DNA from: a virus
Strand: one strand, 5' to 3'
Virus record (IMG/VR): IMGVR_UViG_3300006790_000142
Span: 1 to 20,492 of that record
DNA: 20,492 nt
Positions 1 through 14,837 of the stretch are shown one piece after another; the first letter of the stretch is position 1, and every line of letters begins with the position of its first letter. The position numbers and the translations under genes were made by a program. Below the pieces are notes generated by a model. That model saw nothing but the letters and a program-made list of their open reading frames with translations. It did not search any database and had not been told where the DNA came from.

Positions 1-1632
1 GGGTTGATCAGGCGCAAGAGGATGCGGAGACTGCAACATCTGGTTTAATAATACCAGGAATTGCTGCATTGACGACTGTACTTGTCCGACCATTCTGAAA
101 GGAAATCCTTTCAACATTTCGGCACGTTCGGATTCATTTTTATCAGGGAAAAGGTATTTAAGAGCTTCGACACTCTCCACACCTAGTTCCTGCATGTTCC
201 GAACGACCATGGACTTCTGCAAGACGTCGTAAGCGGTGTCTTCGTAGACATCGCCTTGGTACCTGTAGCTGACGTTGCGGTCGCCATCTTCAGGAATACC
301 AATAACGCCCCTAGGCACCTTATTTTCGGTAAGGGCCTTCTGCATTTCTTGGTTTAACTTTGCTTCGAAGCGGAAAGTTGCCTTTTGGAACCTTTCAATC
401 GACTCTTCAGTAGGTTCTTTCGGTGGTTTTGGCTCTTTGATGCCAGTTGCGGCAATAAATGACTCTCTAAAGATGTTTTCCTGGTGGAAAATCATCATTT
501 CGAGCAAAGCGCAGAAACCGTAAGTCAGGAAGCTCTTATTCTTCCTTGTTGCGGTCGCTTGAGCCCTACCCATCAAGCCTTTAATCTCTGTAGCCGTTGC
601 TCCGGCTGAAATAGAGATTTCGTCCACACCGCCTAGGGCTGTACGGATCTCTTCTCGTAAAAGAAGCGCATAACGGTTCATATCACCGCTAATCGGGTCC
701 GGAGTCATGTAACCGACTCGGTCCGAAGGCTCCACGTTGGCAATAATGCGTGGAACACGCAATCCGCCGCCCATAGACGAGCCAAATGGCTCACTTACAC
801 GCGTGGAAGGAGTGTTTTGACCGGCAAAACCCGACTGAGAGCTAATTGTTGGTCGGAAAGTGTTGCCTGCGTCCGAAGCTTCGACCAGATCGGACCTAGG
901 ACGACTAGAAATCAGCGTTGGGTTGCCGAAAAACTCAATATTCTTCGAAATATTCTTGATCATCTGGTCATGAAGCACAATTTGCTCCATGAAGGGGTCG
1001 AAATCACCCTCTCCTTCAGTACCACTAGCGTTTGGTTTGTTTAAAACCTCAACTGCGGGCACAAAGCCGAGAGAATTAGGTCTTTTCTTCTCTCCGTAAA
1101 GGACTCCAGTCGGTTCAAGCTCAAAACTAAGCTCTGTATCTGACTCAGCTTCAGCAATCTCCTCTGCAGTGATGCTTAAACGGACGTAACGCTTGTTCTG
1201 ACCGTAAACATCACTAGGTAAGCCCAGATTACTGTTCTTTACCTTGTAGTCGTAGAGAATAACGACCTCTTCAATCTGACCATTAGCGTCGTGGAAGACT
1301 CGGTACTGCTTCTTATTAAAGAAATAGATCTGATATTTAAGTTTTGGATCGGGTCGGAAGTAGAAAAGCCCACAACCGTCGATTAAGAAGTTACGAATAA
1401 TGGCTGGAAAACGAATATCGAGTCTGTTTAACTCAATAACATCGCTTAAAAACTTAGTTCGACTCTTATAAGTATCTTGATCGCAGTAAAAAGACAGACC
1501 CTTTTTGATCATCAAAAGGGTCATCTGTTGAAGGTGGCTTAAAACCACCATCGTCGCTGCTTGGTTAGAACGATCCTGAGTGCGGGCTGCCTCTAGGATC
1601 TCTTCAAACTGGCTTCGTACGTCAGTTGTCAT
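1..1632 (-). CDS. Phage portal protein, C-terminus cut by window edge
   Basis: An open frame of 544 codons runs from an ATG at 1632-1630 to the window edge without a stop. The portal forms the dodecameric ring at the capsid vertex through which the terminase pumps DNA. I translated it by hand. It starts MTTDVRSQFEEILEAA and contains a segment around 1050-940 reading DPFMEQIVLHDQMIKNISKN. Near 650-560 it reads LGGVDEISISAGATATEIKG, followed by LMGRAQATATRKNKSFLTYG. The pattern GG-x-(D/E)-x-I-S-x-G-x-(T/S)-A-T-E-I-K-G followed by a long helix is typical of the wing/clip region of tailed-phage portals. It is the last gene of the terminase-led minus-strand run and starts 15 bases after the GT17 stop. 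The assignment rests on this motif, the length and the proximity to terL. The exact portal family is not resolved. Confidence 0.8.
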   Translation of the reverse strand, partial: MTTDVRSQFEEILEAARTQDRSNQAATMVVLSHLQQMTLLMIKKGLSFYCDQDTYKSRTKFLSDVIELNRLDIRFPAIIRNFLIDGCGLFYFRPDPKLKYQIYFFNKKQYRVFHDANGQIEEVVILYDYKVKNSNLGLPSDVYGQNKRYVRLSITAEEIAEAESDTELSFELEPTGVLYGEKKRPNSLGFVPAVEVLNKPNASGTEGEGDFDPFMEQIVLHDQMIKNISKNIEFFGNPTLISSRPRSDLVEASDAGNTFRPTISSQSGFAGQNTPSTRVSEPFGSSMGGGLRVPRIIANVEPSDRVGYMTPDPISGDMNRYALLLREEIRTALGGVDEISISAGATATEIKGLMGRAQATATRKNKSFLTYGFCALLEMMIFHQENIFRESFIAATGIKEPKPPKEPTEESIERFQKATFRFEAKLNQEMQKALTENKVPRGVIGIPEDGDRNVSYRYQGDVYEDTAYDVLQKSMVVRNMQELGVESVEALKYLFPDKNESERAEMLKGFPFRMVGQVQSSMQQFLVLLNQMLQSPHPLAPDQP

Positions 1633-1646
1633 TATTTATTAGACCC

Positions 1647-2459
1647 TCAGCTGGCGGGCAGAAGGTAATCCCGTACTCTTTCTATTCTAAGGGCAGGTTC
1701 TGGAAGGTCAGATACTGGGTAGGTGGTAATAAGGTGATCTTTACGACCTAACATATCTGTATTGCCTTCTTCAGGCACAAAGTCCTCACACTTTTTCTGA
1801 ACGTCTGGTTTATCCCAGATGTAATATTCTGCGATAGAGCGCAGCTTAGTCTTACGTTTATCTGCGTCACCCATCCAGCTAAGGTGCCAACCAGCGTCTC
1901 TGTTACCGACGTAGACGTTATTGGTCGTAGCTCGAAGCGCAGACAAAGTTCCAAAATTACGGAGCTGACCAACCGTGGAAGCTGTACCGCAACGCCAATC
2001 AAACTTCTCACCTTTAGGTGAAATCAGCTGACGATCAGCGCGTCCATAGTGCATAGACATGCTGAGACGCACAGTCTTATCCTCGTTATCGAGAACCGCT
2101 TGTTTAATTTCCTCTAGCTTCTCAGGGTTAGTGATCTCGTCGCAGTCACTGCAGATAAAGAAGGTATCGTCAGGCATCATGAAAAGAGCGACGCTGAGGG
2201 CATCTCTCTGCCCACGCTCTCGGATCCAAGGGTCTGGGGCTTCTTCGTAAGGCGGTAGTTCGACGTGCAGGACTTGAATCTTGTCCTCAGGGAGACCAAG
2301 CTCGCGAATAGTGTCGAGACAGGTGAAAGGCTTCTCCTCTCCCCTGTGAGTCATGTTCGCATCAGTAATAAGGAAGCCATCTACGTGGTCCTCCAAAGTA
2401 CGGATGCGAAGCTCAAGTAGTTCTTTCTCGTTGAAATAAGGAAAGCAATCTAACAACAT
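1647..2459 (-). CDS. GT17-family glycosyltransferase
   Basis: This 270-residue protein looks like family GT17, the beta-1,4-N-acetylglucosaminyltransferase-III-like family. Members transfer a sugar from a nucleotide-sugar donor. The N-terminus has the family opening (FPYFNEKELLELRIRTLEDH, residues 7-26, then VDGFLITDANMTHRG). A DxD-like metal/nucleotide site, SDCDEI, is at residues 104-109. The segment GWHLSWMGDADKRKTKLRSI lies in the C-terminal half and matches the 'GWH(L/F)S...K' block of the family. It is about the length of other phage/bacterial GT17 proteins. There is no signal peptide or membrane segment, so it should act in the host cytoplasm. It lies between two small virion-like genes and the portal gene. 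The family call is solid from motifs; acceptor and donor are unknown. Confidence 0.82.
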   Translation of the reverse strand: MLLDCFPYFNEKELLELRIRTLEDHVDGFLITDANMTHRGEEKPFTCLDTIRELGLPEDKIQVLHVELPPYEEAPDPWIRERGQRDALSVALFMMPDDTFFICSDCDEITNPEKLEEIKQAVLDNEDKTVRLSMSMHYGRADRQLISPKGEKFDWRCGTASTVGQLRNFGTLSALRATTNNVYVGNRDAGWHLSWMGDADKRKTKLRSIAEYYIWDKPDVQKKCEDFVPEEGNTDMLGRKDHLITTYPVSDLPEPALRIERVRDYLLPAS

Positions 2460-2494
2460 GCTGACACGATTAGATGTCTTACGATACCACGGTT

Positions 2495-2785
2495 TTACAT
2501 GTCGGCTACTTCAGCCATCCGAGTCTTGGCTTGGTTTAGCAAATAGTTTTTAGTGCGGTCAACGTTCTCGTTCTCGTCATCGAACTGAGCTTCCTGGACT
2601 TGCCCAGGGCTCTCAGGTTCCTCAGGAGGCGTGGGGCCGTTCAGCTCTTGATCAAAACCACTCTGCACGTAAGAGTCAAACTCTTCGGTTGGTTGTTGAT
2701 CAGCGCGACGCTGACTATTCGCAGCTTTTACTGCGTCGGCGTAACGACCCTTAAAGATGTCGCCGTAATCTTCGAAATTGTTCAT
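2495..2785 (-). CDS. Small acidic hypothetical virion-region protein
   Basis: This is a 96-residue, strongly acidic protein that I do not recognise. Residues about 33-75 are rich in P, E, Q and D and look disordered. Both ends look helical (NNFEDYGDIFKGRYADAVKA near the start, TKNYLLNQAKTRMAEVADM at the end). Its ATG overlaps the stop of the upstream gene by one base (position 2785), so the two are probably translationally coupled. Placement between the terminase and portal genes suggests a head-assembly role such as a scaffold-like or decoration protein, but nothing in the sequence proves it. Confidence 0.6.
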   Translation of the reverse strand: MNNFEDYGDIFKGRYADAVKAANSQRRADQQPTEEFDSYVQSGFDQELNGPTPPEEPESPGQVQEAQFDDENENVDRTKNYLLNQAKTRMAEVADM

Positions 2786-3063
2786 CAGAAAAGAACGTTA
2801 ACGAGTTGAATGTTTCCGCCGCTGATGGTGGTAAAGCCGCCAGTAAGCGTAGGGTCGCTAGCGAAACCGGAAAATGGAATCATCTGCCCCTGAGCGTCAT
2901 TCATCTCAAGATAAACTTGCTCAGCGTTATCGGTAGCTTGGACCCTGATGGCACGGCAAGTGGGAAAAGTTTTCTGACCGGCAAGAGGGCTCCACAGAAA
3001 ACCACTCGCGTAAGACAGGTCAGCGACCTGCCCGTACACCGTACCAAATGCGCGAATGTCCAT
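2785..3063 (-). CDS. Small beta-rich protein, possible head/spike component
   Basis: This 92-residue protein has alternating hydrophobic residues consistent with a small beta-sandwich. The C-terminal part (about residues 36-92: CRAIRVQATDNAEQVYLEM, then a turn region, then GGNIQLVNVLF) resembles the short beta-barrel proteins often found next to phage head genes. Those carry the pattern 'C/G-R-A-I-x-V ... G-x-x-x-x-F-x-G ... V-x-V-x-x-L'. I base this on pattern resemblance only. The ATG at 3063 lies one base from the end of an 8-bp hairpin (3065-3084), which leaves no room for a normal ribosome binding site. Its stop overlaps the ATG of the next gene. Confidence 0.6.
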   Translation of the reverse strand: MDIRAFGTVYGQVADLSYASGFLWSPLAGQKTFPTCRAIRVQATDNAEQVYLEMNDAQGQMIPFSGFASDPTLTGGFTTISGGNIQLVNVLF

Positions 3064-3064
3064 T

Positions 3065-3084
3065 ACTGAATATTTTTATTCAGT
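3065..3084. promoter_or_regulatory. Perfect 8-bp hairpin between two coupled genes
   Basis: ACTGAATA at 3065-3072 and TATTCAGT at 3077-3084 are perfect inverted copies separated by a four-base loop. The right arm contains the stop codon of the DUF3310 gene, and the left arm ends one base before the ATG of the next gene on the minus strand. No T-run follows on the minus strand, so it is not a typical intrinsic terminator. It may be an mRNA processing or translation-control hairpin. Confidence 0.45.
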
Positions 3085-3295
3085 CTACTGTATATAAACT
3101 GATCAGCTTATCCAGGTACCACCTAGCTTTCTTCAAGTCCTCCACACCGTTCTTGAACTGGAAACGCCAGATGTATTTGAAGCAAGCGAGCTGACAGTAA
3201 GACTTAAGACCCTCAACACCAGCAGCAGCCTGCATGGCGTCGAAGCACTCAATATCACCTTGCGTATAGTGAGCAGGATGATTAACGGGGTCCAT
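3080..3295 (-). CDS. DUF3310 family protein
   Basis: This 71-residue protein has the DUF3310 (PF11753) signature. NHPAHYTQG is at residues 5-13, with the IE-x-F/I-D motif just after it. Near the C-terminus KYIWRFQFKNGVEDLKKARW (residues 41-60) is followed by a helix. The family is common in phages, sometimes fused to nucleotide kinase domains, and has no established biochemical function. The protein covers essentially the whole domain and nothing else. Its start overlaps the end of the upstream glycosyltransferase by 14 bases. Confidence 0.85.
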   Translation of the reverse strand: MDPVNHPAHYTQGDIECFDAMQAAAGVEGLKSYCQLACFKYIWRFQFKNGVEDLKKARWYLDKLISLYTVD

Positions 3296-4163
3296 AACTA
3301 AACATGTCGTCTAGGGTGATCGTATTGTCTTTGGCGTAAAGCTGCTTCGAATACTTAATATCTAAATGCCTCACAAGCCCGCACGGGTGGATTCGCAGGT
3401 CGCCATCCAGGTTCATCAAAGGAACAACGCGGCGGTGTTCTTGCCCTGGCTTAAGACCTTCGAAAGCGAGACCCATCGAGCTTCTGTCAGCTATAGGCCA
3501 GTTTCGCTTACCGATAACTTCGTAACTTGAGCGTGGGTCACAACTACGACTAGAGATATATTTCTCAGCATCCTGCTGATCGAGAATCATGAGACCAGAG
3601 TAAGGATTACCCAGAGAAGTAAAACCAGCGAAGTTAATATCACAAGGCAAGATCTTGAAACCGCAGTCGTAACCTATTTCGCCCCAGACAGATTTAGTCT
3701 CTCGGTCAAGGTTCCAAGTTTTATAGTTATCGAAAGGTATATCAATATCGTTGAAGTGCTCATACCTGCAGAACCCTGGTTCAAGGTTTAAAGGTCTTAG
3801 TTTCTCTTTGTAGTCCTTCCAGTAACCAAATTGTTCACTACTGAATAACATATCGTTCTCCGAATACATGTAGTAATCGAAGTCCTTATTCAGCACTCTT
3901 CGTGCAAACTCTTCTTTGTGTGCCCAACACAAGTAGTACCCCTCGAACTCAGGCGCAGCTACAACCACGCTGGTTTGCTTTAAGGAGCAGTGCGATCCGA
4001 CAATTAGAGAGAACTCGTCGAGATCATGTTTGTGGTCATGATCTATAAAGAACTCAACGTAGACGTCAATAGGAATAGTTTCGTAAGACCTTAAAACAGC
4101 AAGGGTTTTTTCGATCCGTGCAAGGGGGTCGTGCGCAGTGACTGCGATGTAGATCTTTTCCAT
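3282..4163 (-). CDS. Probable GT-A-fold glycosyltransferase
   Basis: This protein has 293 residues from the ATG at 4163, which overlaps the terminase stop as TGATG. A TTG one codon upstream is the only longer choice. The first 40 residues look like the opening beta-alpha-beta of a GT-A nucleotide-sugar enzyme (KIYIAVTAHDPLARIEKTLA). The stretch HKEEFARRVLNKDFDYYMYS leads into SENDML (residues 101-106), which sits where GT-A enzymes keep the DxD metal-binding motif. No membrane segment is visible. I cannot place it in a CAZy family from sequence alone. Co-translation with terL implies late expression. A non-catalytic relative of GT-A enzymes is possible because the DxD is not canonical. Confidence 0.65.
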   Translation of the reverse strand: MEKIYIAVTAHDPLARIEKTLAVLRSYETIPIDVYVEFFIDHDHKHDLDEFSLIVGSHCSLKQTSVVVAAPEFEGYYLCWAHKEEFARRVLNKDFDYYMYSENDMLFSSEQFGYWKDYKEKLRPLNLEPGFCRYEHFNDIDIPFDNYKTWNLDRETKSVWGEIGYDCGFKILPCDINFAGFTSLGNPYSGLMILDQQDAEKYISSRSCDPRSSYEVIGKRNWPIADRSSMGLAFEGLKPGQEHRRVVPLMNLDGDLRIHPCGLVRHLDIKYSKQLYAKDNTITLDDMFSYGPR

Positions 4164-5683
4164 CAATATTCGATGTTGTAATTACCTCGTTTCTGTAGGT
4201 AAGCGATTAAGTGAGTGTATGCGTCGAGTAGGTCATCGTGAGAAGTAGCACCGACGTTAAGCAACTGATCGTGAAGGGCATCAAACTTCCTGAACTTATT
4301 GAATGTTACTTTCTTGTTTTCTAGTAAACCAAGCGTGCCTCTAAACCGTGCGACTTTGTCACCACGGAATCCCTTGACCTCGTGGATGTGTAAGTTCCCT
4401 AAACCGCGCTCATCTAACAAGACCCTCTTAAGGTCAGCAGCTAGAGAAGCCTGGTAGGCAACCGCTTCAACAACCAGAGTAACGGTTGAATAAGTAGGGA
4501 AATATTGGTCTCCTTGGAGTTCGAGAATGCCCCACTCGACAAGCATGTCGCACAAAAGATCGATTTTTTCGAGGTTGCCAATCGATCGAACCTGATGAGC
4601 GTCGATAATGAAGTACTTATCTTTCAAGCGACCGCCGAGAACGAAGGCTGTGTAATCAGATGTCTCGTTCTTACTTGCCGAAAGGTCAATACCTACAGCG
4701 AGTGAGTCGAATTCAGTCTCCACTTCGCCCTTAATGAGTAAGTCCGGCGAAAGCACAAGATCTGACGTCATGACTGGCTGCTGTTGGTACTGGTACGCAA
4801 AAGCCACCGGGTCGAGTTCTTTCTGTCCTAGTAGATACTTAACACTCCACTGCTCAGGCCAGTAACTGACTGGTTCGCCTTCTTTGTCATAAGTAAGCGC
4901 TTCTTGAGCAACCTGCTTCCACCCCTTCTTCGGAACGAACATAGTTTTGTGGATGTCGAGTGGATGGAACCGTGTACCCAGGCAAATACACCGACCGCCT
5001 TCGAAGACAATCGGTGCAATAACTGAAGACCAGTTGTTGTTCATCTCGTCTCGAACCGCAGGGTTCTTAATATCCGAGCTTGATTTAATAGGGTCATCCA
5101 CGATGACTAGGTGCGCACGTTTAGAGGTAATTGAACCTCGAAGACCAGCTGCACGAAGTGTGAATTCTTCGTCGCCTACTCGCTGGATACCTGCGTAGTC
5201 AAAGTCAATCGACCAACCGATATCGCTCTGCATACCGGCTCGCAGCTTCACTTTCGGAAAGATCTTCTTGAAAGTGGTGGAGTCGATAATCTGCTTAATA
5301 ATTCGACTCTTAGGAATAGCCGTTGCGATGTTGTATGAGCAGTAAATGATCTGAAGAGGGCGCCCATCAGTCGTGTGTCTGCCGATGACCCACGCGGTGA
5401 ATAGGTTCAGAACGGTCGACTTAGCTGAACCTCGCGGGCTGAGAATATCTAAGTTTGGACCAGCTATATCTAACAGATACTTGTTACTTTCTCCTGTAAT
5501 AAGTTCCCTGTGCCACTCAAGCATGTGGGCAGCTGGAGGTTTATCCAAGAGAGTACAGAACGTCAGGAAGTCATTCTGTGCTCTAGAAAATACACTATCG
5601 ATACCAGAGTCGTCTTTATCAACTGCTTTCTGTGCTCTGTTCTTAAGCGCACGACGATATGCAAAGGTCTCTCTACTAGGCAT
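4163..5683 (-). CDS. terL: Terminase large subunit (packaging ATPase and nuclease)
   Basis: This 506-residue motor protein packages DNA into the prohead and cuts the concatemer. The ATPase domain has a Walker A motif SPRGSAKST (residues 82-90), a Walker B motif LVIVDDP (192-198) and a coupling motif around GTRF (236-239). The RNase-H-like nuclease domain has the expected three acidic positions: D333 in GIDLSASKNETSDYTAF, E406 in VVEAVAY, and the D483/D484/D487 cluster in HDDLLDAYTH. Length is normal for the family. It is the first gene of the left minus-strand run and is divergently arranged with the GT4 gene, with only 44 bases between. AGAAG precedes the ATG by two bases. All catalytic motifs are intact, so it should be functional. 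Confidence 0.96.
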   Translation of the reverse strand: MPSRETFAYRRALKNRAQKAVDKDDSGIDSVFSRAQNDFLTFCTLLDKPPAAHMLEWHRELITGESNKYLLDIAGPNLDILSPRGSAKSTVLNLFTAWVIGRHTTDGRPLQIIYCSYNIATAIPKSRIIKQIIDSTTFKKIFPKVKLRAGMQSDIGWSIDFDYAGIQRVGDEEFTLRAAGLRGSITSKRAHLVIVDDPIKSSSDIKNPAVRDEMNNNWSSVIAPIVFEGGRCICLGTRFHPLDIHKTMFVPKKGWKQVAQEALTYDKEGEPVSYWPEQWSVKYLLGQKELDPVAFAYQYQQQPVMTSDLVLSPDLLIKGEVETEFDSLAVGIDLSASKNETSDYTAFVLGGRLKDKYFIIDAHQVRSIGNLEKIDLLCDMLVEWGILELQGDQYFPTYSTVTLVVEAVAYQASLAADLKRVLLDERGLGNLHIHEVKGFRGDKVARFRGTLGLLENKKVTFNKFRKFDALHDQLLNVGATSHDDLLDAYTHLIAYLQKRGNYNIEY

Positions 5684-5694
5684 CTTCTAAAAGT

Positions 5695-5712
5695 GCTTAT
5701 ATACTGTTATCG
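5695..5712 (+). promoter_or_regulatory. Candidate promoter between terL and the GT4 gene
   Basis: The 44-base gap between two divergent genes holds TATACT (5700-5705), which matches five of six bases of a sigma-70 -10 box for the plus strand. I see no matching -35 box. ATACTGTTA (5701-5709) recurs exactly at 14057-14065 in another divergent gap. On the minus strand the same bases read GTATATAAGC, also found at 20423-20432. Orientation and function are uncertain. Confidence 0.35.
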
Positions 5713-5727
5713 AAATTCTAACCCTGT

Positions 5728-6891
5728 ATGGCAAAGATACTCTGGTACGGAGACGCTGTTTCAAACACAGGGTTTGCTCGTGTGTCGCACAGTGTATTAG
5801 AGCACCTGAGCAAAGACCATGAGGTAGTTGTCTTTGGTATCAACTACACAGGGGATCCTCACGAATACCCTTTTAAGATTTATCCAGCAGCAGCACTTAA
5901 CCCTGCTGATCGATTCGGCGTGGGACGCATCCACCAAGTTATTGAAACAGAAAGACCTGATTTTGTCTTCTGCCTTAACGATCTCTGGATCGTCAATCAA
6001 GTGTGGGAGCGAGTGCACCTCCTCAAGAGCGCACTGAAATTTAAATTTATTGCTTATTTCCCCACCGATTCGGAGTGGTACCCACTCTCGATGCTTCGGT
6101 ACATCAAAGACTGGGATTTCGCGATTACGTTCACGATCCAGCAAGCACAGCGCATCATGGCGCATGGTGTTCAACCGAAGAAGCTTGGGGTTATCCCCCA
6201 CGGTTTAGACGAAGGTAAGTTCTTCGAGATGGACAAAGCCCAGGCACGAAAAGCGCTGGGGCTCCCCTTAGATAAATTCATCGTCTTTAACGGAAACCGT
6301 AACCAGCCCCGCAAGCTGATTGATCAAACGATCAAAGCTTTTGCTGAGTTCGCTGTAGGTAAGAAAGACGTCATGCTCTTCCTAAACATGGGAGAGAAAG
6401 ACCTGGGTTGGGCTGTAAGGGAACTGTTCGAAACTGAGATGCGTCGTAGAGGAGAAGATCCCACGCAGAAACTCGTCCTTACGCCAAACATGAATTACAT
6501 GAAGGCTCCCCCGGACAGTTACCTGAATACCATTTACAACGCTGTGGACGTCGGCATCAACACCGCTAATGGTGAAGGTTGGGGTCTTGTGCCGTTCGAA
6601 CACGCCTTGTGTAGGAAACCTCAAGTGGTTCCCGAACACACTTCATGTAAAGACATCTGGAAAGGCAAAGGTCTTTTGATCAAGATCGGCGCGTGGATTA
6701 CAGACAAGGATCTTGGAGTAGAGCGAGGAATTATCGACTTCAAGCACGCAGCGGAACTACTCAACGATCTTTACGAAGACGAAGAGTATCGCGAGATGAT
6801 CGCAAATCAGTGTTACGAAGTTACGCAAAACCCCTCCTATAGGTGGGAGAAAGTTGCTGAAGGATTTACCAAAGCGATGGAGGTGATCTGA
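5728..6891 (+). CDS. GT4-family (GT-B fold) glycosyltransferase
   Basis: This 387-residue protein has the two Rossmann halves of a GT-B retaining glycosyltransferase. The N-terminal half has the glycine loop SNTGFARVS (residues 12-20). The central linker has VIPHGLDEGKF (155-165). The C-terminal donor site has the diagnostic E-x7-E motif, E283 to E291 in GEGWGLVPFEHA. The first half reads WYGDAVSNTGFA, an arrangement seen in phage and bacterial GT4 proteins. No signal peptide is present. It is on the opposite strand from the virion genes. Its stop overlaps the next ATG (TGATG at 6889-6893), so it and the propeller protein form a two-gene operon. No clear Shine-Dalgarno sequence precedes the ATG. 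Donor and acceptor are unknown. Confidence 0.88.
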   Translation: MAKILWYGDAVSNTGFARVSHSVLEHLSKDHEVVVFGINYTGDPHEYPFKIYPAAALNPADRFGVGRIHQVIETERPDFVFCLNDLWIVNQVWERVHLLKSALKFKFIAYFPTDSEWYPLSMLRYIKDWDFAITFTIQQAQRIMAHGVQPKKLGVIPHGLDEGKFFEMDKAQARKALGLPLDKFIVFNGNRNQPRKLIDQTIKAFAEFAVGKKDVMLFLNMGEKDLGWAVRELFETEMRRRGEDPTQKLVLTPNMNYMKAPPDSYLNTIYNAVDVGINTANGEGWGLVPFEHALCRKPQVVPEHTSCKDIWKGKGLLIKIGAWITDKDLGVERGIIDFKHAAELLNDLYEDEEYREMIANQCYEVTQNPSYRWEKVAEGFTKAMEVI

Positions 6892-7982
6892 TGACTACCC
6901 AACATCCCCGTTACGCTGCTTCACTCACTTACTTAGAACACCCTCTCAAAGGAGACTCTTACTCTGGCTACCCGACTGTCTACGAACAAGCAGAGCGTAT
7001 CGGAGGAAAGTTCACTCGAATTCGTTGGGGCTTACCTGATCAAGCTATAGCTAACTTCAGCCCTTGTTTAATCAGTGAGCACGGGCATCGTCTCCTCGCT
7101 TTCCGAAGTCAGCCTGAACCTTTTGTATTCAGGTACGACCAAAAATATTTCTACTACAACAACACTCCCACAGATGTTTATATCGGGGAGTTAGTTTCCG
7201 ACGACACGATACTTGGCGCTCGCAAGATCAGGTCTGCGCCGCACCGCCTCAGCTACGAAGATCCTCGTTTGTTTAACGCACCAGACGGAGAACTTTACTG
7301 TCAGTTCGTAACCAGCTCTTACGCGACGAAGTGGGATAACTCCCCACACCTGATGGTTAATGCACCGAAGATCTGCGTGGGACAGGTAACGTCATTCGGT
7401 GAAGTAGTCGATTGTGTTTACCCTCCTGCAGGACAAAACCTTGAGGCAGGCAAAACAGAGAAGAACTGGTGTTTCTTCACAGACGAAGAAGAACTCAAAC
7501 TTCTTTATTCGACGATTCCCTTAACGATTAAAACCCCTGGCAAACCCGATAAAACTATCGATTCTGATTGCCTTAAGAAGCTTGTTGGAGAGTACCCAAC
7601 ATTTAACTCAACTGCCCCGATCAAGATCGGAGACGAATGGCTTGTGTTCTTCCATTGGAAGTACATGGCTTTCGATGCTCAACAACAGCTGACTTATCTT
7701 CTTTATCACCTCGGGGCTTACACGCTCGACGAAAAGATGACGAAGATAACCCGCCAGTGCACAGAAGCTATCTTCAGCGGTTCTACCAACGACAAGTTGA
7801 TCTGGTGGACTGATGTCAGTGGTCAAGCTGTGTCGAAACAACCCGCTTGTGTTCTTCCCTTTGGAGGGATTTACGACGAAGACACTGAGTGCATCGAGAT
7901 GCCTCTAGGCGTCAATGACTCGTTTATGGGCATCTTCCGTTGCCCTCTCGTCAACATCTTGGCTCTACTAGAAGAGGTTTAA
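6891..7982 (+). CDS. Five-bladed beta-propeller carbohydrate enzyme (GH130/GT108-like)
   Basis: This 363-residue protein carries the hallmarks of the five-bladed propeller superfamily of glycosidases, phosphorylases and mannosyltransferases. SYEDPRLF (residues 121-128) is the 'EDPR' blade motif. EKNW followed by LLYST (190-207) is the 'E-K-N-W...F/Y-S' block. The last blade has VLPFGGIYDEDTECIEMPLG (321-340) then VNDSFMG, matching the 'P-x-G...Y-G-x-x-D' closing motif. Such enzymes break, phosphorolyse or transfer mannose-type sugars. Which activity applies here is not decidable by eye. It is coupled to the GT4 gene, so the pair probably acts on the same glycan. Its stop codon overlaps the stop of the convergent minus-strand gene by four bases, leaving no room for a terminator. 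Confidence 0.75.
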   Translation: MTTQHPRYAASLTYLEHPLKGDSYSGYPTVYEQAERIGGKFTRIRWGLPDQAIANFSPCLISEHGHRLLAFRSQPEPFVFRYDQKYFYYNNTPTDVYIGELVSDDTILGARKIRSAPHRLSYEDPRLFNAPDGELYCQFVTSSYATKWDNSPHLMVNAPKICVGQVTSFGEVVDCVYPPAGQNLEAGKTEKNWCFFTDEEELKLLYSTIPLTIKTPGKPDKTIDSDCLKKLVGEYPTFNSTAPIKIGDEWLVFFHWKYMAFDAQQQLTYLLYHLGAYTLDEKMTKITRQCTEAIFSGSTNDKLIWWTDVSGQAVSKQPACVLPFGGIYDEDTECIEMPLGVNDSFMGIFRCPLVNILALLEEV

Positions 7983-8503
7983 GACTTCTCTTCTCTTTCG
8001 ATAGTCGACCAGACCACCATCGATGCTTCCTCTAAGAGGTCAGCCATCGTTGGTGCGTCTTCGAAAGTATTAAGCAATTCACGTAAGCAACGATCTGCAC
8101 CGGCAAGTAACAAGCCACGGCGATCAAGACCATCCGTCAGCTGTCTAACTGCTTGGATGTGAGAGCGGAGTTCCTTTTGCAGGACTGAGATTTTGGTTGC
8201 TGCTGTGGCGTGATCAAGCATCCCAGTAAGGGTCATTTGACGCACGTTGCCAATATCCTCTCGAATAGAATCAATTTCGATCAGAAGGATTTTGCGTAAA
8301 TCCTGCTTAGGGTATTTCTCCTGGATATAAGCAGTGATATCCGAAATAGATCCTTCATACCCTGGACGCATAAAGCGAGCAAACAAGTAAGCTTCGATCT
8401 CACTCGTAGCGTTCTTTGCGTGGTGTAGAAAAGAATCTTTTTGTGTCTTGTCGAGCGACTGAAGCCAGTCAGCAACTGTGTTTTCAGTCGTTGTGTCGAT
8501 CAT
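7979..8503 (-). CDS. Helical hypothetical protein, small-terminase candidate
   Basis: This 174-residue protein is predicted almost entirely helical, and I do not recognise it directly. The N-terminal half (VADWLQSLDKTQKDSFLHHA and the following GSISDITAYIQEKYP) could hold a small DNA-binding helical domain. The C-terminal half (about residues 90-130) looks like a coiled coil suitable for oligomerisation. This layout and the position as the last minus-strand gene before terL fit a small terminase subunit. That is inference from position and shape. Its ATG overlaps the stop of the upstream gene as ATGA (8503-8500), so the two are coupled. Confidence 0.6.
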   Translation of the reverse strand: MIDTTTENTVADWLQSLDKTQKDSFLHHAKNATSEIEAYLFARFMRPGYEGSISDITAYIQEKYPKQDLRKILLIEIDSIREDIGNVRQMTLTGMLDHATAATKISVLQKELRSHIQAVRQLTDGLDRRGLLLAGADRCLRELLNTFEDAPTMADLLEEASMVVWSTIEREEKS

Positions 8504-9453
8504 CCGAAGTAAGCGTTACCGGCCATCACCCGACCCATCGAACGATTGCGTAAGTCGTCCGTAGCCATGGCGTTTGCACGGATCTTAGCGATGTCGCCTT
8601 TAACTTTAGCTTGGTTCCGGGTCAGATCTCCCATGATGTCTTGGTCACCAAGTGCCAAGGAACCAGCAATTCGCTGAGCATTAGAAGCTAAGTTTCCGCG
8701 AATGCTTTGCTCGCCCACAGACAGAGCGTTCCTTACGTTCTGCTGCCCAAGAGCTAAGCGGCTCTGAATATCTTGTTGACCAAGGGCCAAGTTACCTTCA
8801 GTAGATGCTCGGGTAGCAAGCAAACCGCCAAGAGTATCTGCGTACTTCTGAGCAATGTTTGTCTTAGCTCCTTCCTGCAGAGCCCGCAGACCAATATTGG
8901 TCGTAGCGAGATTCTCAGCTAAACGATTATCTTGGTTCAGCATTGCGCTGCCTGCTTGAGCAGCAAATGCAGGATTAAGAAGCTCTAGCTGAAGTTTTGC
9001 ATTACCGGTCTGTTCAGCAAGACGCTGACCAGCACCAATCATCCCCGACACTTCACCCATCTGAAGTTGTCGAGCGCCACTAGAATCTTTAGCTGCATCA
9101 GCCAAGATAGTCTTCTGACCAGAACTCAGGCCCTCTCCATAGAGGCCCATAGCACCGATATTTGCACCAGACTGATTAGTGAAACGTAAACCAGCCAGTG
9201 TCAGCGGAACATTAGCCGCTGCTGCTTCCGTGCCGTACTTAGCAAAGAAGTCGTAAGGATATTGTTGGTAACCGTACTGACCGCCTCCAGTACCCTGAGG
9301 TGCCTGAGCTTGTTGTTTACCTCCGGAATCCAGAGCGCTGATACCCCCAGCAAGAGCTGATCCAGCAGCGGCACCTCCAGGTCCAGCAATAGCACCACCG
9401 ACAATCGGAGCTGCGACCTTCGCAATGTTCTTAACGCCGTCCCAAAAGCTCAT
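8500..9453 (-). CDS. Virion-like protein with eleven 11-residue repeats
   Basis: This 317-residue protein has a glycine/alanine-rich, membrane-compatible N-terminus (residues 11-40, AKVAAPIVGGAIAGPGGAAA and onward). A Q/G/Y-rich linker follows (45-68), then a long helical C-terminal half. Residues 178-298 divide without gaps into eleven units of exactly 11 residues, most beginning with L. Examples are LALGQQDIQSR, LALGQQNVRNA, LSVGEQSIRGN and LALGDQDIMGD. Hendecads form untwisted or right-handed coiled coils, or amphipathic membrane-binding helices. The ATG is two bases after the upstream stop. A role as an internal or ejected virion protein is likely from neighbours and composition. No family match is claimed. 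Confidence 0.75.
   Translation of the reverse strand: MSFWDGVKNIAKVAAPIVGGAIAGPGGAAAGSALAGGISALDSGGKQQAQAPQGTGGGQYGYQQYPYDFFAKYGTEAAAANVPLTLAGLRFTNQSGANIGAMGLYGEGLSSGQKTILADAAKDSSGARQLQMGEVSGMIGAGQRLAEQTGNAKLQLELLNPAFAAQAGSAMLNQDNRLAENLATTNIGLRALQEGAKTNIAQKYADTLGGLLATRASTEGNLALGQQDIQSRLALGQQNVRNALSVGEQSIRGNLASNAQRIAGSLALGDQDIMGDLTRNQAKVKGDIAKIRANAMATDDLRNRSMGRVMAGNAYFG
8560..8922 (-). repeat. In-frame 33-base-period coding repeat (11 units of 11 residues)
   Basis: The DNA encoding residues 178-298 of the 317-residue protein has a 33-base period because each unit encodes 11 residues. Units 5 and 6 (residues 222-243) are nearest to identical, starting LALGQQ in both. Unit 9 (LALGDQDIMGD) is close to unit 5. 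Outer units are diverged, which suggests an old amplification followed by drift. Confidence 0.7.
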
Positions 9454-9455
9454 GA

Positions 9456-10301
9456 TTAGTTAACCGGTGAACCAGGTTTAAATGCAGTCATGGCCTGCTG
9501 AGTAGGTCCTGCTAAAGCACCCAACACGTTGGCATTAGGAGTAGCAGATAAATATGCTGCTTGTAGCATAGATGAGCCAAGAACAGCGTCACGTTTAATC
9601 TGTTCGTTGGTGACGCTGCGCCAAGCATCAATCACCTGTCGACGGGTAACTTCCCGTCCTTTCTCCATCGCATAGCGTTGGTTGATCGCATTGATCTCTT
9701 TCGTTGCCGCGAGATCTTGATCGATCATCGTCTGGCGACGCTCGGGATCCATCGCATCGCGAAGAATCGAAGCTAAGTCGCCACGGAGATTACCGACTTC
9801 TCCTTGAGCTTGAGAGACTGTGGGCAGAATCTGAGTTGACTCTTCGTCACTAATACCAGGATCAACCGCAGGAATTAGAGGGTTGTCTCCAGGTTCTTCG
9901 TATGCAGGACCCAAACCAGGAGGGTTATCAGACCCCGCACCGTTGGGTTGACTGGTTTGAGTTTCCCCTTGAGCGTTGGGGTAAAGATTACGCAGTGGGT
10001 TACTCAGATAAGGGTTGTCTGCTCCACCAGGAAGAATGCCGCCAATCCTTTCGTCAATCTCTCCATAAAGTTCAGGAGCGACGAGGTTCGCACCGCCTGC
10101 GACAGCAGCACCCAAACCAGCAAGACGTAAGAACTCTCCGAGAAAACGAGCCCCTTTATTACGGCTAGTGCGCATACCTTCAGTAACACTCGGTCGAGTC
10201 CGAGAACGACTAGGAGCCTCTGATTCGTTAACAGTCACGCGTGGAGGAGAGCTGTTAGCTCTGGGATCTCCAGGTGTATCAAATCCAGTGGTAACAGGCA
10301 T
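9456..10301 (-). CDS. Virion-like protein with hydrophobic Gly/Ala segment
   Basis: This is a 281-residue protein of unknown family. Residues 1-50 are basic, Ser/Pro/Arg-rich and probably disordered. Residues 57-74 (LRLAGLGAAVAGGANLVA region) form one short hydrophobic segment. Residues 90-160 are low-complexity and rich in P, G, N and D. Residues 165-245 look like a long helix or coiled coil. This sequence of disordered, membrane-compatible and coiled-coil parts resembles phage internal or ejection proteins by shape only. It sits between two similar genes, with two-base gaps on both sides. Confidence 0.65.
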   Translation of the reverse strand: MPVTTGFDTPGDPRANSSPPRVTVNESEAPSRSRTRPSVTEGMRTSRNKGARFLGEFLRLAGLGAAVAGGANLVAPELYGEIDERIGGILPGGADNPYLSNPLRNLYPNAQGETQTSQPNGAGSDNPPGLGPAYEEPGDNPLIPAVDPGISDEESTQILPTVSQAQGEVGNLRGDLASILRDAMDPERRQTMIDQDLAATKEINAINQRYAMEKGREVTRRQVIDAWRSVTNEQIKRDAVLGSSMLQAAYLSATPNANVLGALAGPTQQAMTAFKPGSPVN

Positions 10302-10303
10302 GA

Positions 10304-10786
10304 TCAGAAACCTCGTGCGACTTCAGTAGCAGAACCTTCACCACCGATAGTGCGGCGGCCCAGGATCTTATCAATGGCAGTATCAATGTTGCCTCCCATA
10401 GCTTGGAGGCCGGTGCCCACGGTGTTGTACATCGAAGGTACAGCTGAATACTGACCTTGGATGTTCGCCATAGCCCGCTCACGCGCACCAGCTTCAGCCA
10501 TGCGTTGTGCAGACTGCTCAGAGAAGAAGCGACTGAGATCCTGGAAATCAATCGGATCACCAGCATCAATGCCGACGCTTCGCAACCTTGCTCGGTTGTA
10601 GTTCTCCTGATTAATCGCTGTAAACAACTGATTAATATCTAACTGAGGAGAAGCGTATCCTTGGTTTGAAACTCCACCAGACTTAGGAGCTTGGTCCTTA
10701 AACAGCTGTGGAATAAGATCAATTAACTTATCTAAAGTCAGTGCTGTTGCGGTGGGGCCAAGCCCTGCAGCCAAAGGTCCAGCCAT
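10304..10786 (-). CDS. Hypothetical virion-region protein
   Basis: This is a 160-residue protein that I do not recognise. It begins MAGPLAAGLGPTATALTLDK, then has a mixed helical centre (FQDLSRFFSEQSAQRMAEAG) and a G/A/T-rich C-terminus. Its ATG overlaps the upstream stop by one base (10786), and its own stop is two bases from the next ATG. It is part of the same co-translated virion-like run and is probably structural. Confidence 0.6.
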   Translation of the reverse strand: MAGPLAAGLGPTATALTLDKLIDLIPQLFKDQAPKSGGVSNQGYASPQLDINQLFTAINQENYNRARLRSVGIDAGDPIDFQDLSRFFSEQSAQRMAEAGARERAMANIQGQYSAVPSMYNTVGTGLQAMGGNIDTAIDKILGRRTIGGEGSATEVARGF

Positions 10787-11019
10787 TACACAGCTCCTGG
10801 TTTATCGTAAGCGGTTCCGCTTAACGGTTTCTTGTTGAATTTTAGTTCATTTCCGTCTGGAGTCATTGGCATCACCACGTCTTTTTGTTGTGCTGATGGT
10901 ATTGCAGCGGTTTGAGGGAAATTAGACGCTAAGTAACGACGTAAAAAGTCGTTAGGACTCATCTGAGGTGCTTCCCTCTTTACATCACGCTCACGAAGTT
11001 GTGCTTGTCTAGTATTCAT
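10786..11019 (-). CDS. Small hypothetical protein in virion operon
   Basis: This 77-residue protein is basic near the N-terminus (TRQAQLRERDVKRE) with a short helix (SPNDFLRRYLASNF) and a probably disordered C-terminus. It has no recognised domain. Start and stop each overlap a neighbouring gene by one base, which supports it being real despite its small size. Confidence 0.6.
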   Translation of the reverse strand: MNTRQAQLRERDVKREAPQMSPNDFLRRYLASNFPQTAAIPSAQQKDVVMPMTPDGNELKFNKKPLSGTAYDKPGAV

Positions 11020-11525
11020 CAGCTCAACTGTTGGAACTGAACAGAGGGAGGAATATTGTTGCTAGAAGGTGCGTTGAGCATTGAGTAGTTAGCACCCAGG
11101 TTCGGGGTGTCATACTCAGCAGGACGCTGTGCAGAAAGCTCGTCCATATGCATATCACTCTGCCCTTCAAGAATCTCTAGAAGCTGCAGCATCTCGTCAA
11201 TGAGTTCAGGATTCTCGCAAACTCGATCGAGTAGCTCGACCAAGACAGGATCCAGAGCCGGGGGATCAGCTTGCTCCACGCGCAAACGCGCTGCCAACTG
11301 ATTACGACCCATCGGATCGTCTACGTCGGGATAAGTGTTAAGTGAGCGGGTAGCTCCGGTGTACATACCGCCTTGCTCAGGCTCAATGCGAGGAGCACGA
11401 CCCTGACTGAATCTACGCAGTACTTGTGCAACCATCGGGGCCGCAGCGGCCTGTTCATCAGGGGTCTCGGGCATAGGAAGCCCCAGCATCCGAGACGCTA
11501 ATGCATAATCTGCCCTAGAAAACAC
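11019..11525 (-). CDS. Hypothetical virion-region protein, GTG start likely
   Basis: This 168-residue protein reads from a GTG at 11525-11523 that lies inside the end of the XRE-type gene (11-base overlap). An ATG at residue 13 (11489) is the alternative start. Residues 90-122 are a leucine/glutamate-rich helix (LVELLDRVCENPELIDEMLQ, then LLEILEG). The C-terminus is rich in N, P, S and Q and likely disordered. I see no known family. Its stop overlaps the next ATG. The helix could mediate oligomerisation. Confidence 0.55.
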   Translation of the reverse strand: MFSRADYALASRMLGLPMPETPDEQAAAAPMVAQVLRRFSQGRAPRIEPEQGGMYTGATRSLNTYPDVDDPMGRNQLAARLRVEQADPPALDPVLVELLDRVCENPELIDEMLQLLEILEGQSDMHMDELSAQRPAEYDTPNLGANYSMLNAPSSNNIPPSVQFQQLS

Positions 11526-11787
11526 CGGAACCTACAGCGACTGATAATTCCATTGTACTCTGTATTTTTAGAACGTCGCCTGGAGTAACTTCTAGCGTCA
11601 GACAGATCTTCTCAAGAACATCAGGAGAAGGAATATACGTAGTATCGCTGCAGATCTTCCGCGTGGTAGTCGGAGATAAAGAAGCCAGCTTGCTTAACGC
11701 GAAAGAAGACAAGTCCTTTTGCGAAAGCAAGCCGTGCAGGTTATTTACCAGATAGCCACTGGCTGTATGTGCTGAGTAGAAAGGCAT
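11515..11787 (-). CDS. XRE/Cro-type helix-turn-helix protein
   Basis: This 90-residue protein has residues about 28-75 matching the Cro/C1 helix-turn-helix layout. An entry helix (SSFALSKLASL) is followed by the turn and recognition helix (SPTTTRKICSDTTYIPS), then the closing helices (PDVLEKICLTLEVTPGDVLK). The pattern 'A-L-x-K-L-A-x-L-S-x-x-T-x-x-K-I...P-S-x-x-x-L-x-K-I-C-x-x-L-x-V-x-P-G-D-V-L' is clear. It should bind DNA as a dimer and regulate transcription. It is unusual in sitting inside a virion/glycan operon. Its start overlaps the methyltransferase stop by one base, and its end overlaps the next gene by 11. Confidence 0.72.
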   Translation of the reverse strand: MPFYSAHTASGYLVNNLHGLLSQKDLSSFALSKLASLSPTTTRKICSDTTYIPSPDVLEKICLTLEVTPGDVLKIQSTMELSVAVGSGVF

Positions 11788-12470
11788 TAGCCAAGTTTTA
11801 GCCCCTCGGAGATATCGACTAATCCTGTGCCACTAAAGTGACCAAACGACGTGAGATCGATCTTAGGAGAAGAGATCAAACGCCAAGAGGGCATCTCGCT
11901 TTGGAAACGGATGTCGTCAAGAAGAAGCCAACGATCTTTTTTCGGGAACTTGATTGTTGTTAACAGACTATAGAACGTCTTCTCGAATACACCGTCTTTA
12001 GGTCCATCGCACATGATGAAATCGGCATTAACAAGAAGTTTGGTAAATCTATTGAATACCTCACTTTTCTTAAGATCTTCTAAGTGCTGCGTAAGTCTCC
12101 CGCTCTCAAAATCGTCTTCTTTTAAGTAAGTAGTCTCGTATTTCTCCCACGGAGTTACATCAAACGTGGTGACCTTGTCGACGTTGGGCGAGTAGTCCAG
12201 CATCACCCGCGCAGATGTTCCGTAGTGCGTTCCAATATCGACCAAGCTGAGAGGTCCGTTCCTGCGGTCGAGATTAAAAACCAGACCAGCAAGAATCCGA
12301 TAGTGGTCACCAGGGAAAGCGTTAGCAAAAGGGTTATCGCAATTAATACGGCATTTTGAAGCAGTCGAAACACTGTCAAGAACATAGTCCCAGCTATCGA
12401 AGTTCTGAGCCGCCGCGTCGTCGTCAGTCGACCAGCACTCGCTTGGGATCCTGTGGCGAACAGCTTTCAT
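11787..12470 (-). CDS. Class I SAM-dependent methyltransferase
   Basis: This 227-residue protein has SAM-binding motif I, VDIGTHYGTSA (residues 77-87), followed by the acidic end of beta-2 (TTFDVTPWEKY, 101-111). Later come ADFIMCDGPKDG and LLLDDIRFQSE, the post-I acidic positions of the Methyltransf_24/FkbM-like groups. Those families often O-methylate sugars or small molecules. The start ATG is two bases after the GT2 stop, so it is co-translated with a glycosyltransferase. This suggests methylation of a glycan, by inference. There is no DNA-methylase catalytic motif (DPPY/PC). Confidence 0.75.
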   Translation of the reverse strand: MKAVRHRIPSECWSTDDDAAAQNFDSWDYVLDSVSTASKCRINCDNPFANAFPGDHYRILAGLVFNLDRRNGPLSLVDIGTHYGTSARVMLDYSPNVDKVTTFDVTPWEKYETTYLKEDDFESGRLTQHLEDLKKSEVFNRFTKLLVNADFIMCDGPKDGVFEKTFYSLLTTIKFPKKDRWLLLDDIRFQSEMPSWRLISSPKIDLTSFGHFSGTGLVDISEGLKLG

Positions 12471-12472
12471 GA

Positions 12473-13243
12473 TTAGAAACCGAGGTGTTTAGAGCGGACG
12501 AAGCCTAAGTCGTAAGTCGTGAAACTTACGGGCATATCCGGCAAGTTAAAAGGAGTCTTATTGGTCACGCCATCAACATGCGCTTGCCAGGCTTCGTTCC
12601 ACTTGAGATGAAGATAACGCTTGTTCATCTCGTGTGCTCTGTGTACACCTTGAGCAATAGCCGGTTCAGACCTCCAGGTCTGTGAACCATCCGAATAGTC
12701 GTTTTTCTTGGTTCCGTGGTAGTAACCGTGGTCCAGACTAAGAACACGTTTCACATCGTCATGTATGAAGCGCATACCGTAATCCATATCCTCGCAATAG
12801 CCAGGGTATAGGTTTTCATCAAATAGACCGTAACGTTCAACCATCCAGTCTTTAAGGAGAAAGATATCCCAACCACCGCCGTTGCCGTGGACGATACCTA
12901 CCTCTTTATCCTGAGCTTTCTCATTCATCTCCTTCAGGAACCCTGATTCGAACTGAACGTCGTGGTTAGCGATGACCCAGTAAGGAGCTTTCATAAAGCT
13001 CTTGATAATCAAGTTCCATGCGCCACTACACCCGACATTCGCAGGCAGGTGACAGACGTGGACGTTCTCGACGTACTTATTAGGGATCTCCTTAAGCAAG
13101 TCGACCTGATCGTCGATCTGCCCTCTTCCGTTGTTATTGAACACAACAAAGTGCTCAACAGGGTAATCGATGCTCATGAAGAGCCGATGCAGCCAAAAAG
13201 GAGTATTTACGATCGCAGTCCCGATAACAGGGATTTTATTCAT
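12473..13243 (-). CDS. GT2-family glycosyltransferase
   Basis: This 256-residue GT-A inverting glycosyltransferase resembles the rhamnosyltransferase-like branch of GT2. Residues 5-12 form the first strand (PVIGTAIV). HLPANVGCSGAWN (65-77) is the conserved 'N-x-G-x-x-G/A-x-N' nucleotide-sugar loop. NHDVQF (93-98) occupies the DxD position. YCEDMDYGMR (149-158) is the ED catalytic-base motif. No membrane segment is visible, so it is probably cytoplasmic. It leads the methyltransferase and XRE genes in a tight run. A 7-bp inverted repeat lies just upstream of its ATG. Confidence 0.85.
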   Translation of the reverse strand: MNKIPVIGTAIVNTPFWLHRLFMSIDYPVEHFVVFNNNGRGQIDDQVDLLKEIPNKYVENVHVCHLPANVGCSGAWNLIIKSFMKAPYWVIANHDVQFESGFLKEMNEKAQDKEVGIVHGNGGGWDIFLLKDWMVERYGLFDENLYPGYCEDMDYGMRFIHDDVKRVLSLDHGYYHGTKKNDYSDGSQTWRSEPAIAQGVHRAHEMNKRYLHLKWNEAWQAHVDGVTNKTPFNLPDMPVSFTTYDLGFVRSKHLGF

Positions 13244-13501: not shown

Positions 13502-13894
13502 TCAGATACTAATATGCTTCCAGCGTCGTCCTGTATCGATCTCATAGATTGTGTGGTAAGTCACACCATACTCACTAGCGATATACATTCTCTTCCTGCC
13601 TTCCTTAAGCAGGGTTTTAATTCTGATGACATCATCCTCAGTGAGCCTAGCGTTACAGTTTCCGCTACCTCTAGTCTTCTCAGACGTGAACATCTGAGGG
13701 AGATTCTTCTTGCACTCCTTACAGACGTGGTTATCCCCTTTACGAGTGTTCTGGGAGTAACGAAGCAGTCTGACTCCACATCCACTGCAGGTCAGCTCTA
13801 ACTTTCGCTTTCCAAAAACAATTCCAGCGTTGTGCATCTCCCAACGCTTATCTGCTGCTTCTTTGGCTTTGCTGGGTTTGTCGAAGTTTTTCAT
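13502..13894 (-). CDS. Zinc-ribbon plus helix-turn-helix DNA-binding protein
   Basis: This 130-residue protein has an N-terminal basic segment (KPSKAKEAADKRW). A likely zinc ribbon follows with CxxC pairs C36/C39 and C58/C61, 18 residues apart. A C-terminal helix-turn-helix spans residues 84-125 (LTEDDVIRIKTLLKEG, IASEYGVTYHTIYEI, GRRWKHI). The C-terminal block is the DNA-binding part seen at the end of many phage HNH and homing-type endonucleases. The H-N-H nuclease residues are absent here, so it is more likely a regulator or a nuclease remnant. It starts 11 bases downstream of the tRNA 3' end and may be co-transcribed with it. Confidence 0.65.
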   Translation of the reverse strand: MKNFDKPSKAKEAADKRWEMHNAGIVFGKRKLELTCSGCGVRLLRYSQNTRKGDNHVCKECKKNLPQMFTSEKTRGSGNCNARLTEDDVIRIKTLLKEGRKRMYIASEYGVTYHTIYEIDTGRRWKHISI

Positions 13895-14093: not shown

Positions 14094-14837
14094 GTGGCAG
14101 CTTCCTTTAAAGACCTGATGGGTCAGCTCAAAGAAGACACAAGAGTGAAAGTCGAGAAGCAAGTACAAGCTGTGCCAGTGATGGAAGGCAAGAAAAAACT
14201 GGACGACAAATATAACTTCACCGAAGGCTGGTATGACGCACTGCTAAACAGCGAATACCTCATCCAACACAACAACGAAGGCCAAACAATCGATCTTATG
14301 CCTGAAGAGGCAAAGACGATCGTGGAGATTGGCTGCTACGAAGGTGCTTCTTCTTGTTTCTGGTCTGATTATTACCTCGATCACGAAGATTCTCGCCTAA
14401 TCACCATCGATCCCTTCACCGGTAGTGAAGAACATCTCCGAGATCCTGGAAAATATGCAGGTTTGAGCACTCTGGAGACCACAGCTCGTTCAAACATCGC
14501 AAAATCTAAGAATGCAGGGAAAGTTGAGGTCCTCAAAGGGTACTCACACCTGATTTATCCCCACCTCTTCCACCGTTATGGCGAAGAACCTTGGATCGAT
14601 ATCCTCTATATCGATGGGGCACATGATTCGACTTCGGTTGCTCGTGATGTTTGCCTGTATGTGCCTATGGTTAAGCCTGGGGGCGTGGTGTTCTTTGACG
14701 ATTATGCCCACCCCGACGTCCGACGAGCCGTTGACATGTCTCTCAATGCTTTTGCAGCCTTCGATCTAGCGATCTTTACAGGTTGGCAGCTGGTGGGAGT
14801 AGTCAGCGACTACAAAAGATCCCACGGAGAGGAGTAA
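14094..14837 (+). CDS. Class I methyltransferase, Methyltransf_24 type
   Basis: This protein has 247 residues from a GTG at 14094. An ATG at 14118 (residue 9) is the alternative start. The SAM-binding motif is IVEIGCYEGASS (residues 76-87), and SRLITIDPF (100-108) holds the acidic end of beta-2. DILYIDGAHDSTSVARDV (169-186) and KPGGVVFFDDYAHPDVRRAV (194-213) are the 'YIDG-x-H-x-Y...L-x-x-G-G...D-D' blocks of Methyltransf_24 (PF13578). Such enzymes are frequent in glycan or small-molecule modification clusters. It leads a three-gene plus-strand operon in which each stop overlaps the next ATG. Its direction is opposite to the virion genes. Confidence 0.82.
   Translation: MAASFKDLMGQLKEDTRVKVEKQVQAVPVMEGKKKLDDKYNFTEGWYDALLNSEYLIQHNNEGQTIDLMPEEAKTIVEIGCYEGASSCFWSDYYLDHEDSRLITIDPFTGSEEHLRDPGKYAGLSTLETTARSNIAKSKNAGKVEVLKGYSHLIYPHLFHRYGEEPWIDILYIDGAHDSTSVARDVCLYVPMVKPGGVVFFDDYAHPDVRRAVDMSLNAFAAFDLAIFTGWQLVGVVSDYKRSHGEE

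Follow-up and report, generated by a model that had tools for sequence, protein, structure and literature searches.

To our knowledge, glycosylation of phage virions has been shown for few systems, namely mycobacteriophages. Chloroviruses glycosylate their own capsid protein. Mycobacteriophage virion glycosylation was described by Freeman et al. 2023 (as cited in PMC12619734), and the glycosyltransferases (GTs) of pelagiphages have been read as modifying the O-chain of the host (PMC7029224). Here, we analyse a set of genes encoding four GTs, a β-propeller enzyme and two methyltransferases (MT1 and MT2) in a linear 20,492-bp virus record of IMG/VR (IMGVR_UViG_3300006790_000142, from now on referred to as the window). 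The set is embedded in a block of packaging and head genes, an interleaving that is kept across relatives and that bears out the initial annotation of this DNA. It is almost certainly a conserved set that functions in sugar decoration.

As in mycobacteriophages, phage-encoded GTs would, in the reading proposed below, act on virion proteins; however, hosts and gene sets differ, the window set consisting of four GTs, a GH130-like propeller and methyltransferases that are fixed in the packaging block of the lineage. Chloroviruses also encode a multi-GT set, and their protein B736L is the closest solved structure to one of the window GTs (GT4), but they are eukaryotic viruses with a different capsid, and the distant homology is seen for GT4 alone. 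Two further, unrelated phages carry a related GT4-GT2-methyltransferase trio among head genes. In Synechococcus phage S-CBS4, a homologous GT4 (45.5% identical), GT2 and a methyltransferase are found between portal and head protease, while the trio of Pontimonas phage phiPsal1, in which GT2 is homologous and GT4 distant, is located between capsid and neck genes. Unlike the window, neither stretch contains GT17, GT-A or the propeller, and the methyltransferases belong to other families. The terminase genes of Tetrasphaera phage TJE1 are closely preceded by genes encoding an FkbM methyltransferase, an epimerase and a homologue of GT4.

The closest isolate to the window is Synechococcus phage S-EIV1, whose terminase large subunit (TerL) and portal protein are 44-45% identical and which is the sole isolate with a portal match. 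The window is a fragment of an uncultured S-EIV1 relative. The late backbone is common to the window and the S-EIV1 clade; however, the set is missing from that clade at this site, and S-EIV1 itself encodes one GT4, located beside the primase.

Enzymes of the set

Every coordinate and named gene of the initial annotation was reproduced using Pfam, PHROG and structure models. Profiles recovered the GT17, GT4 and GT2 families and both methyltransferases, MT1 more weakly and below cutoff. The enzymes of the set, together with TerL and portal, are:

1..1632, minus strand: portal protein, runs off the window (phrog_20475, 5.7e-142; phrog_64 portal, 2.9e-7; 44.6% identity to S-EIV1)
1647..2459, minus strand: GT17-family glycosyltransferase (PF04724, 3.4e-13; SDCDE motif)
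3282..4163 (stop included), minus strand: predicted GT-A-fold glycosyltransferase with no assigned family (AlphaFold model and PDB matches)
4163..5683, minus strand: TerL (phrog_38, 5.1e-74)
5728..6891, plus strand: GT4 (GT-B fold) glycosyltransferase (PF00534, 9.7e-8; phrog_2170, 7.4e-45)
6891..7982, plus strand: GH130/GT108-like five-bladed β-propeller enzyme (Foldseek, 2.2e-11)
11787..12470, minus strand: MT1, Methyltransf_24-like methyltransferase (PF13578, 1.5e-4, just under cutoff)
12473..13243, minus strand: GT2-family glycosyltransferase (PF00535, 4e-7; phrog_29879, 7.8e-20)
14094..14837, plus strand: MT2, Methyltransf_24 methyltransferase (PF13578, 2.2e-21)

Three of the GTs belong to catalogued families. 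GT17 scores 49.8 bits with PF04724 (curated cutoff 26) and contains a DxD motif, its SDCDE sequence being invariant across 21 relatives. GT4 reaches 32.2 bits with PF00534 (cutoff 26.4) and carries a C-terminal E-x7-E motif in which E291 is invariant and E283 nearly so. With 30.6 bits against PF00535 (cutoff 23.3), GT2 is a member of family 2; its NHD and YCEDMDYG motifs are conserved, with D95, E151 and D152 invariant. The solved structure nearest to GT4, chlorovirus B736L (3oy2, E 6.9e-31), has GDP-mannose as its best ligand (PMC4691112). In INPHARED, GT17 found weak partial matches only. When profiles were searched against PDB sequences, those of GT2, GT-A and the propeller returned nothing meaningful, and the chains listed for GT17 were not glycosyltransferases.

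The protein at 3282-4163 had been annotated as an unplaced GT-A protein, and its AlphaFold model (pLDDT 91) agrees with this. PDB glycosyltransferases of the GT-A type were matched with a best E of 2.9e-6 at a TM of about 0.4, among them COLGALT1, LH3 and GT6 enzymes, and the protein is thus predicted to adopt the GT-A fold. The window protein has no match in Pfam, PHROG or NCBIfam, no homologues were found in INPHARED, and the 31 relatives gave no significant Pfam match; by sequence, the protein thus has no catalogued GT family. E102 and D104 of the SENDM motif are invariant in these relatives.

The propeller call was likewise upheld by a structure model (AlphaFold, pLDDT 84). All of the top 39 PDB matches either belong to GH130/GT108 or are putative glycosidases with that fold, the best being GH130 mannoside phosphorylases and Leishmania GT108 enzymes (E 2.2e-11; 10-17% identity). 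By its modelled structure, the protein falls within the fold group of GH130/GT108 mannoside phosphorylases and mannosyltransferases, with which it shares the five-bladed propeller. PF04041 (GH130) recognises 15 of 27 propeller relatives (best E 4.6e-5), one relative reaching 20.9 bits against a cutoff of 26. The window propeller differs from the known enzymes in lying below the Pfam threshold for PF04041, in its low identity to solved structures and in its viral context. D124 and R126 (ED-x-R), K191 and H255 are invariant in relatives and, by motif, are candidate catalytic or phosphate-binding residues. GH130 enzymes are mostly mannoside phosphorylases (PMC8950772). Mannose is a plausible sugar of the glycan in view of the solved structures closest to GT4 and to the propeller.

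No propeller homologues were found by tblastn among the 50,697 phage records of INPHARED. The bacterial genomes searched yielded a single relative, a fusion protein from a metagenome-assembled genome of the Planctomycetaceae that joins a Methyltransf_24 domain to a propeller of the same type and whose gene is followed by that of an FkbM methyltransferase. This fusion suggests that the propeller acts in the synthesis of methylated glycans. Together with the S-CBS4 and phiPsal1 trios, it provides two independent lines connecting the parts of the set.

Conservation in one phage lineage

TerL relatives are encoded on 383 IMG/VR contigs, the best 80 of which were retrieved. Relatives share one gene order: MT2 on the opposite strand, GT2, in some cases MT1, a helix-turn-helix (HTH) regulator gene, several small genes, propeller and GT4 on the opposite strand, TerL, GT-A, a DUF3310 gene, two small genes, GT17 and portal. 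This order is kept in about 80 contigs and the arrangement is therefore not due to chance. Random accumulation of moron genes was considered and rejected, given that both order and strand are conserved in these contigs.

GT-A and GT17 are present in all 46 loci spanning the interval between TerL and portal. Among loci spanning the respective sites, propeller and GT4 are each found in 54/54 and GT2 in 27/27, while MT1 is present in 17 of 27 spanning relatives. It should be noted that the GT4 and GT2 counts include three loci flagged as missing through the overlap tolerance of the script, where the gene is present in the gene map. In the S-EIV1-like sister clade, none of 80 loci matched the profiles of the set at this site, despite the same TerL-portal backbone. 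A TerL tree of 43 sequences places all set-bearing loci on one side of a single branch (support 100/100). This distribution, together with the fixed sites, indicates that the set was gained once (or lost once on the other side) and then retained in place. A single gain is the simpler reading of the tree, whose rooting is not settled.

All sugar genes are under purifying selection, with pN/pS values of 0.07-0.30 relative to the window and dN/dS values of 0-0.09 in close pairs. TerL evolves more slowly (pN/pS 0.04-0.08), and GT-A is the fastest of the sugar genes.

Strand and timing

GT-A is translationally coupled to TerL: in the sequence TGATG, its start codon overlaps the TerL stop by one base, as it also does in 59 of 77 relatives. 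On the late strand, GT2, MT1 and the HTH gene follow each other closely as one string. GT17 lies next to portal at a short distance only in the subclade of the window, where 6-14 bp separate the two genes; in most relatives, the gap is 139-188 bp.

GT4 and the propeller, themselves joined by a one-base TGATG overlap, are located with MT2 on the plus strand, opposite to TerL and portal, and are thus not cotranscribed with the virion genes. MT2 is found on the opposite strand in relatives as well. DNA polymerase lies on the strand of these three genes in all six lineage contigs where it was found, and primase does so in the three contigs mapped in full. All-late expression was accordingly rejected for GT4, the propeller and MT2. 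The initial annotation had proposed that several of the sugar genes are co-translated with virion genes and made late. This is only half right: the argument covers GT-A, through its overlap with TerL, and GT17, GT2 and MT1, through their position on the late strand. ThyX is also encoded on the late strand in this lineage, making strand an indirect guide to timing.

TerL and GT4 are separated by a short divergent element:

5684..5727, no strand: 44-bp intergenic stretch with one -10-like box per direction, TATACT-like toward GT4 and TAGAAT-like toward TerL

About 30 bp of this element are strongly conserved in 76 loci and nearly unique in the genomes scanned; its motifs did not recur as a class in front of other genes. 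A scan with the sigma-70 consensus gave a match at 5677-5705 (plus strand); since the scan overall found fewer sites than in shuffled sequences, individual matches carry little weight and only conservation across relatives was used. GT4 and the propeller have a promoter-like element of their own.

A candidate acceptor

In relatives, the major capsid gene is found downstream of portal (phrog_1357, E 5e-22). Set-bearing loci encode a protein of 265-585 residues with 17-22% Ser+Thr between an open reading frame overlapping portal and the capsid gene. This protein is present in 25 of 25 set-bearing loci versus 0 of 29 set-lacking loci, the proteins found at the same place in the sister clade not being homologous to it. 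It contains stretches similar to tail-fibre and baseplate proteins. As a Ser/Thr-rich, capsid-adjacent protein it is a candidate acceptor, to be treated as a lead only: set and protein follow one tree branch and therefore represent one co-occurrence, not 54 independent ones. No acceptor site of the mycobacteriophage type, meaning a Ser/Thr tail at the C-terminus of the major capsid protein, was seen. As a separate observation, the Ser/Thr-rich protein (L099:277-1485 and homologues in 25 loci) carries a variable insert whose sequence resembles a cupredoxin domain (YCTVHSGMGG).

Possible roles of the set

Gene content beyond the window was read with Pfam at E <= 1e-4 in G002, a complete relative of 85 kb with a terminal repeat of 114 bp. 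No family for nucleotide-sugar synthesis, flippases, lipid-linked transferases or base hydroxymethylation was found, whereas a carbamoyltransferase and 2OG-Fe(II) oxygenases are encoded. The set thus looks like transferases fed with nucleotide sugars by the host and seems to lack what export of a lipid-linked glycan requires, functions that host enzymes could supply.

We lean towards a pathway, dependent on host donors, that decorates a virion protein with a methylated glycan, possibly one containing mannose. Taken by itself, the location of the acceptor on the virion is likewise somewhat probable. We infer one joint pathway of seven proteins, in which the four GTs (GT17, GT-A, GT4 and GT2), the propeller and one or two Methyltransf_24 enzymes would use host nucleotide sugars to assemble a short, O-methylated oligosaccharide. 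Starting or preparing the glycan could fall to GT4, the propeller and MT2, made from the replication strand, while GT-A, GT17, GT2 and MT1, made with late proteins, would extend or finish it, attachment to the virion protein most likely taking place during assembly. The window has one feature of virion glycosylation systems, phage GTs encoded with virion genes. Virion glycosylation had also been proposed in the initial annotation. The embedding in the head block, the TerL overlap and the S-CBS4 and phiPsal1 trios speak for it, while the late timing of the whole set, on which it had been based, did not hold. A more specific version, in which the GH130/GT108-like propeller is a synthetic mannosyltransferase or phosphorylase and a methylated mannoside glycan is built on the lineage-specific Ser/Thr-rich protein, seems rather unlikely.

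Several points weigh against virion glycosylation. The distribution in one clade amounts to a single event, so that co-occurrence with a capsid-adjacent protein could be coincidence. The glycan itself is predicted from gene content, and GT family says nothing about the acceptor. Half of the set is located on the strand of the replication genes, and the lone GT4 of S-EIV1 near the primase indicates that this enzyme can serve a role without a late partner.

The main rival, which we consider unlikely but the strongest of the alternatives, is modification of a host surface polysaccharide or glycoprotein (lipopolysaccharide O-chain, S-layer or exopolysaccharide), which would block superinfection or prevent progeny from adhering to debris. 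GT2 and GT4 families serve bacterial envelope glycans, which counts in its favour, and GT4, the propeller and MT2 may be made early from the replication strand. Host modification is also the usual reading for GTs of aquatic phages (PMC7029224); however, the genes of the set keep their positions, in contrast to the hypervariable host-recognition regions of that study. In addition, GT-A overlaps TerL and the trio recurs within head-gene blocks of unrelated phages. Unlike Gtr-type serotype conversion systems, G002 encodes, by Pfam at E <= 1e-4, no GtrA-type flippase, polyprenyl-phosphate or other lipid-linked transferase or other Gtr-type gene, though the host could supply these functions.

A split function is less probable still. 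GT4 and the propeller, possibly with MT2, would act on a host carbohydrate, for example to release or make mannosides via phosphorylase chemistry, in keeping with the activity of most GH130 enzymes (PMC8950772), while GT-A, GT17, GT2 and MT1 would glycosylate the virion. The strand split is kept in all relatives, GT4 and the propeller have their own promoter-like element, and GT4 alone is retained in S-EIV1, all of which fits such a division. Against this, both halves are confined to the same clade, no spanning locus examined has one half without the other, GT4 and GT2 lie side by side on one strand in S-CBS4, and the fusion of a methyltransferase to a propeller speaks for a synthetic rather than a degradative role.

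Glycosylation of phage DNA bases against restriction, a known role of phage GTs (cited in PMC12619734), is very unlikely: the genes are close to packaging functions and G002 has 2OG-Fe(II) oxygenases, but these are generic and accompanied by ThyX only, with no thymidylate-synthase-type dCMP/dUMP hydroxymethylase or TET/JBP-type family by Pfam, four GTs plus methyltransferases are more than needed, and the S-CBS4 and phiPsal1 trio lies among head genes.

Neighbouring genes

Three further genes of the window lie among those described above:

3080..3295, minus strand: DUF3310 protein, small gene between GT-A and GT17 (phrog_236, 7.6e-26)
7979..8503, minus strand: conserved protein upstream of TerL, possible small terminase subunit (by position)
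11515..11787, minus strand: Cro/C1-type HTH regulator (PF13443, 3.5e-11)

The DUF3310 gene is conserved together with GT-A and GT17 in 46/46 loci, and the copy of one relative matches PF11753 (DUF3310). A homologue of the 7979-8503 protein is encoded upstream of TerL in 71 of 82 S-EIV1-clade records searched, a position from which it is possibly the small terminase subunit. With regard to the packaging and virion genes named initially, PHROGs confirmed portal and TerL, while the "virion-like" genes between 7979 and 11525 gave no significant family match in PHROG and profile searches; their position would be compatible with a virion role. The Cro/C1-type regulator is located beside the sugar genes within the late string and recurs in relatives. 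A tRNA-Leu gene (anticodon taa, 13906-13982, minus strand) adjoins an HNH-type endonuclease gene (13502-13894, minus strand) in the gap that precedes MT2.

The TerL of S-EIV1 (L082:24081-26621), annotated merely as a long terminase, is interrupted by an insertion of about 338 residues, which starts with CLVGDT, finishes with HNFIANGFNVLNC and thus resembles an intein at both ends. The insertion is also found in about ten relatives among L106-L116 and not in other relatives. G002 (L092, L090) encodes bpMoxR and vWA proteins (MoxR-vWA-propeller type) and a protein of the Kyanoviridae Gp96 family.

Implications

The proposed glycosylation of the virion is testable, with the sister clade lacking the set serving as a natural control and the cultured phage S-CBS4 carrying the GT4-GT2-methyltransferase core. 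If true, a widespread branch of aquatic phages, represented by hundreds of IMG/VR contigs, would have virion glycosylation as a fixed trait.

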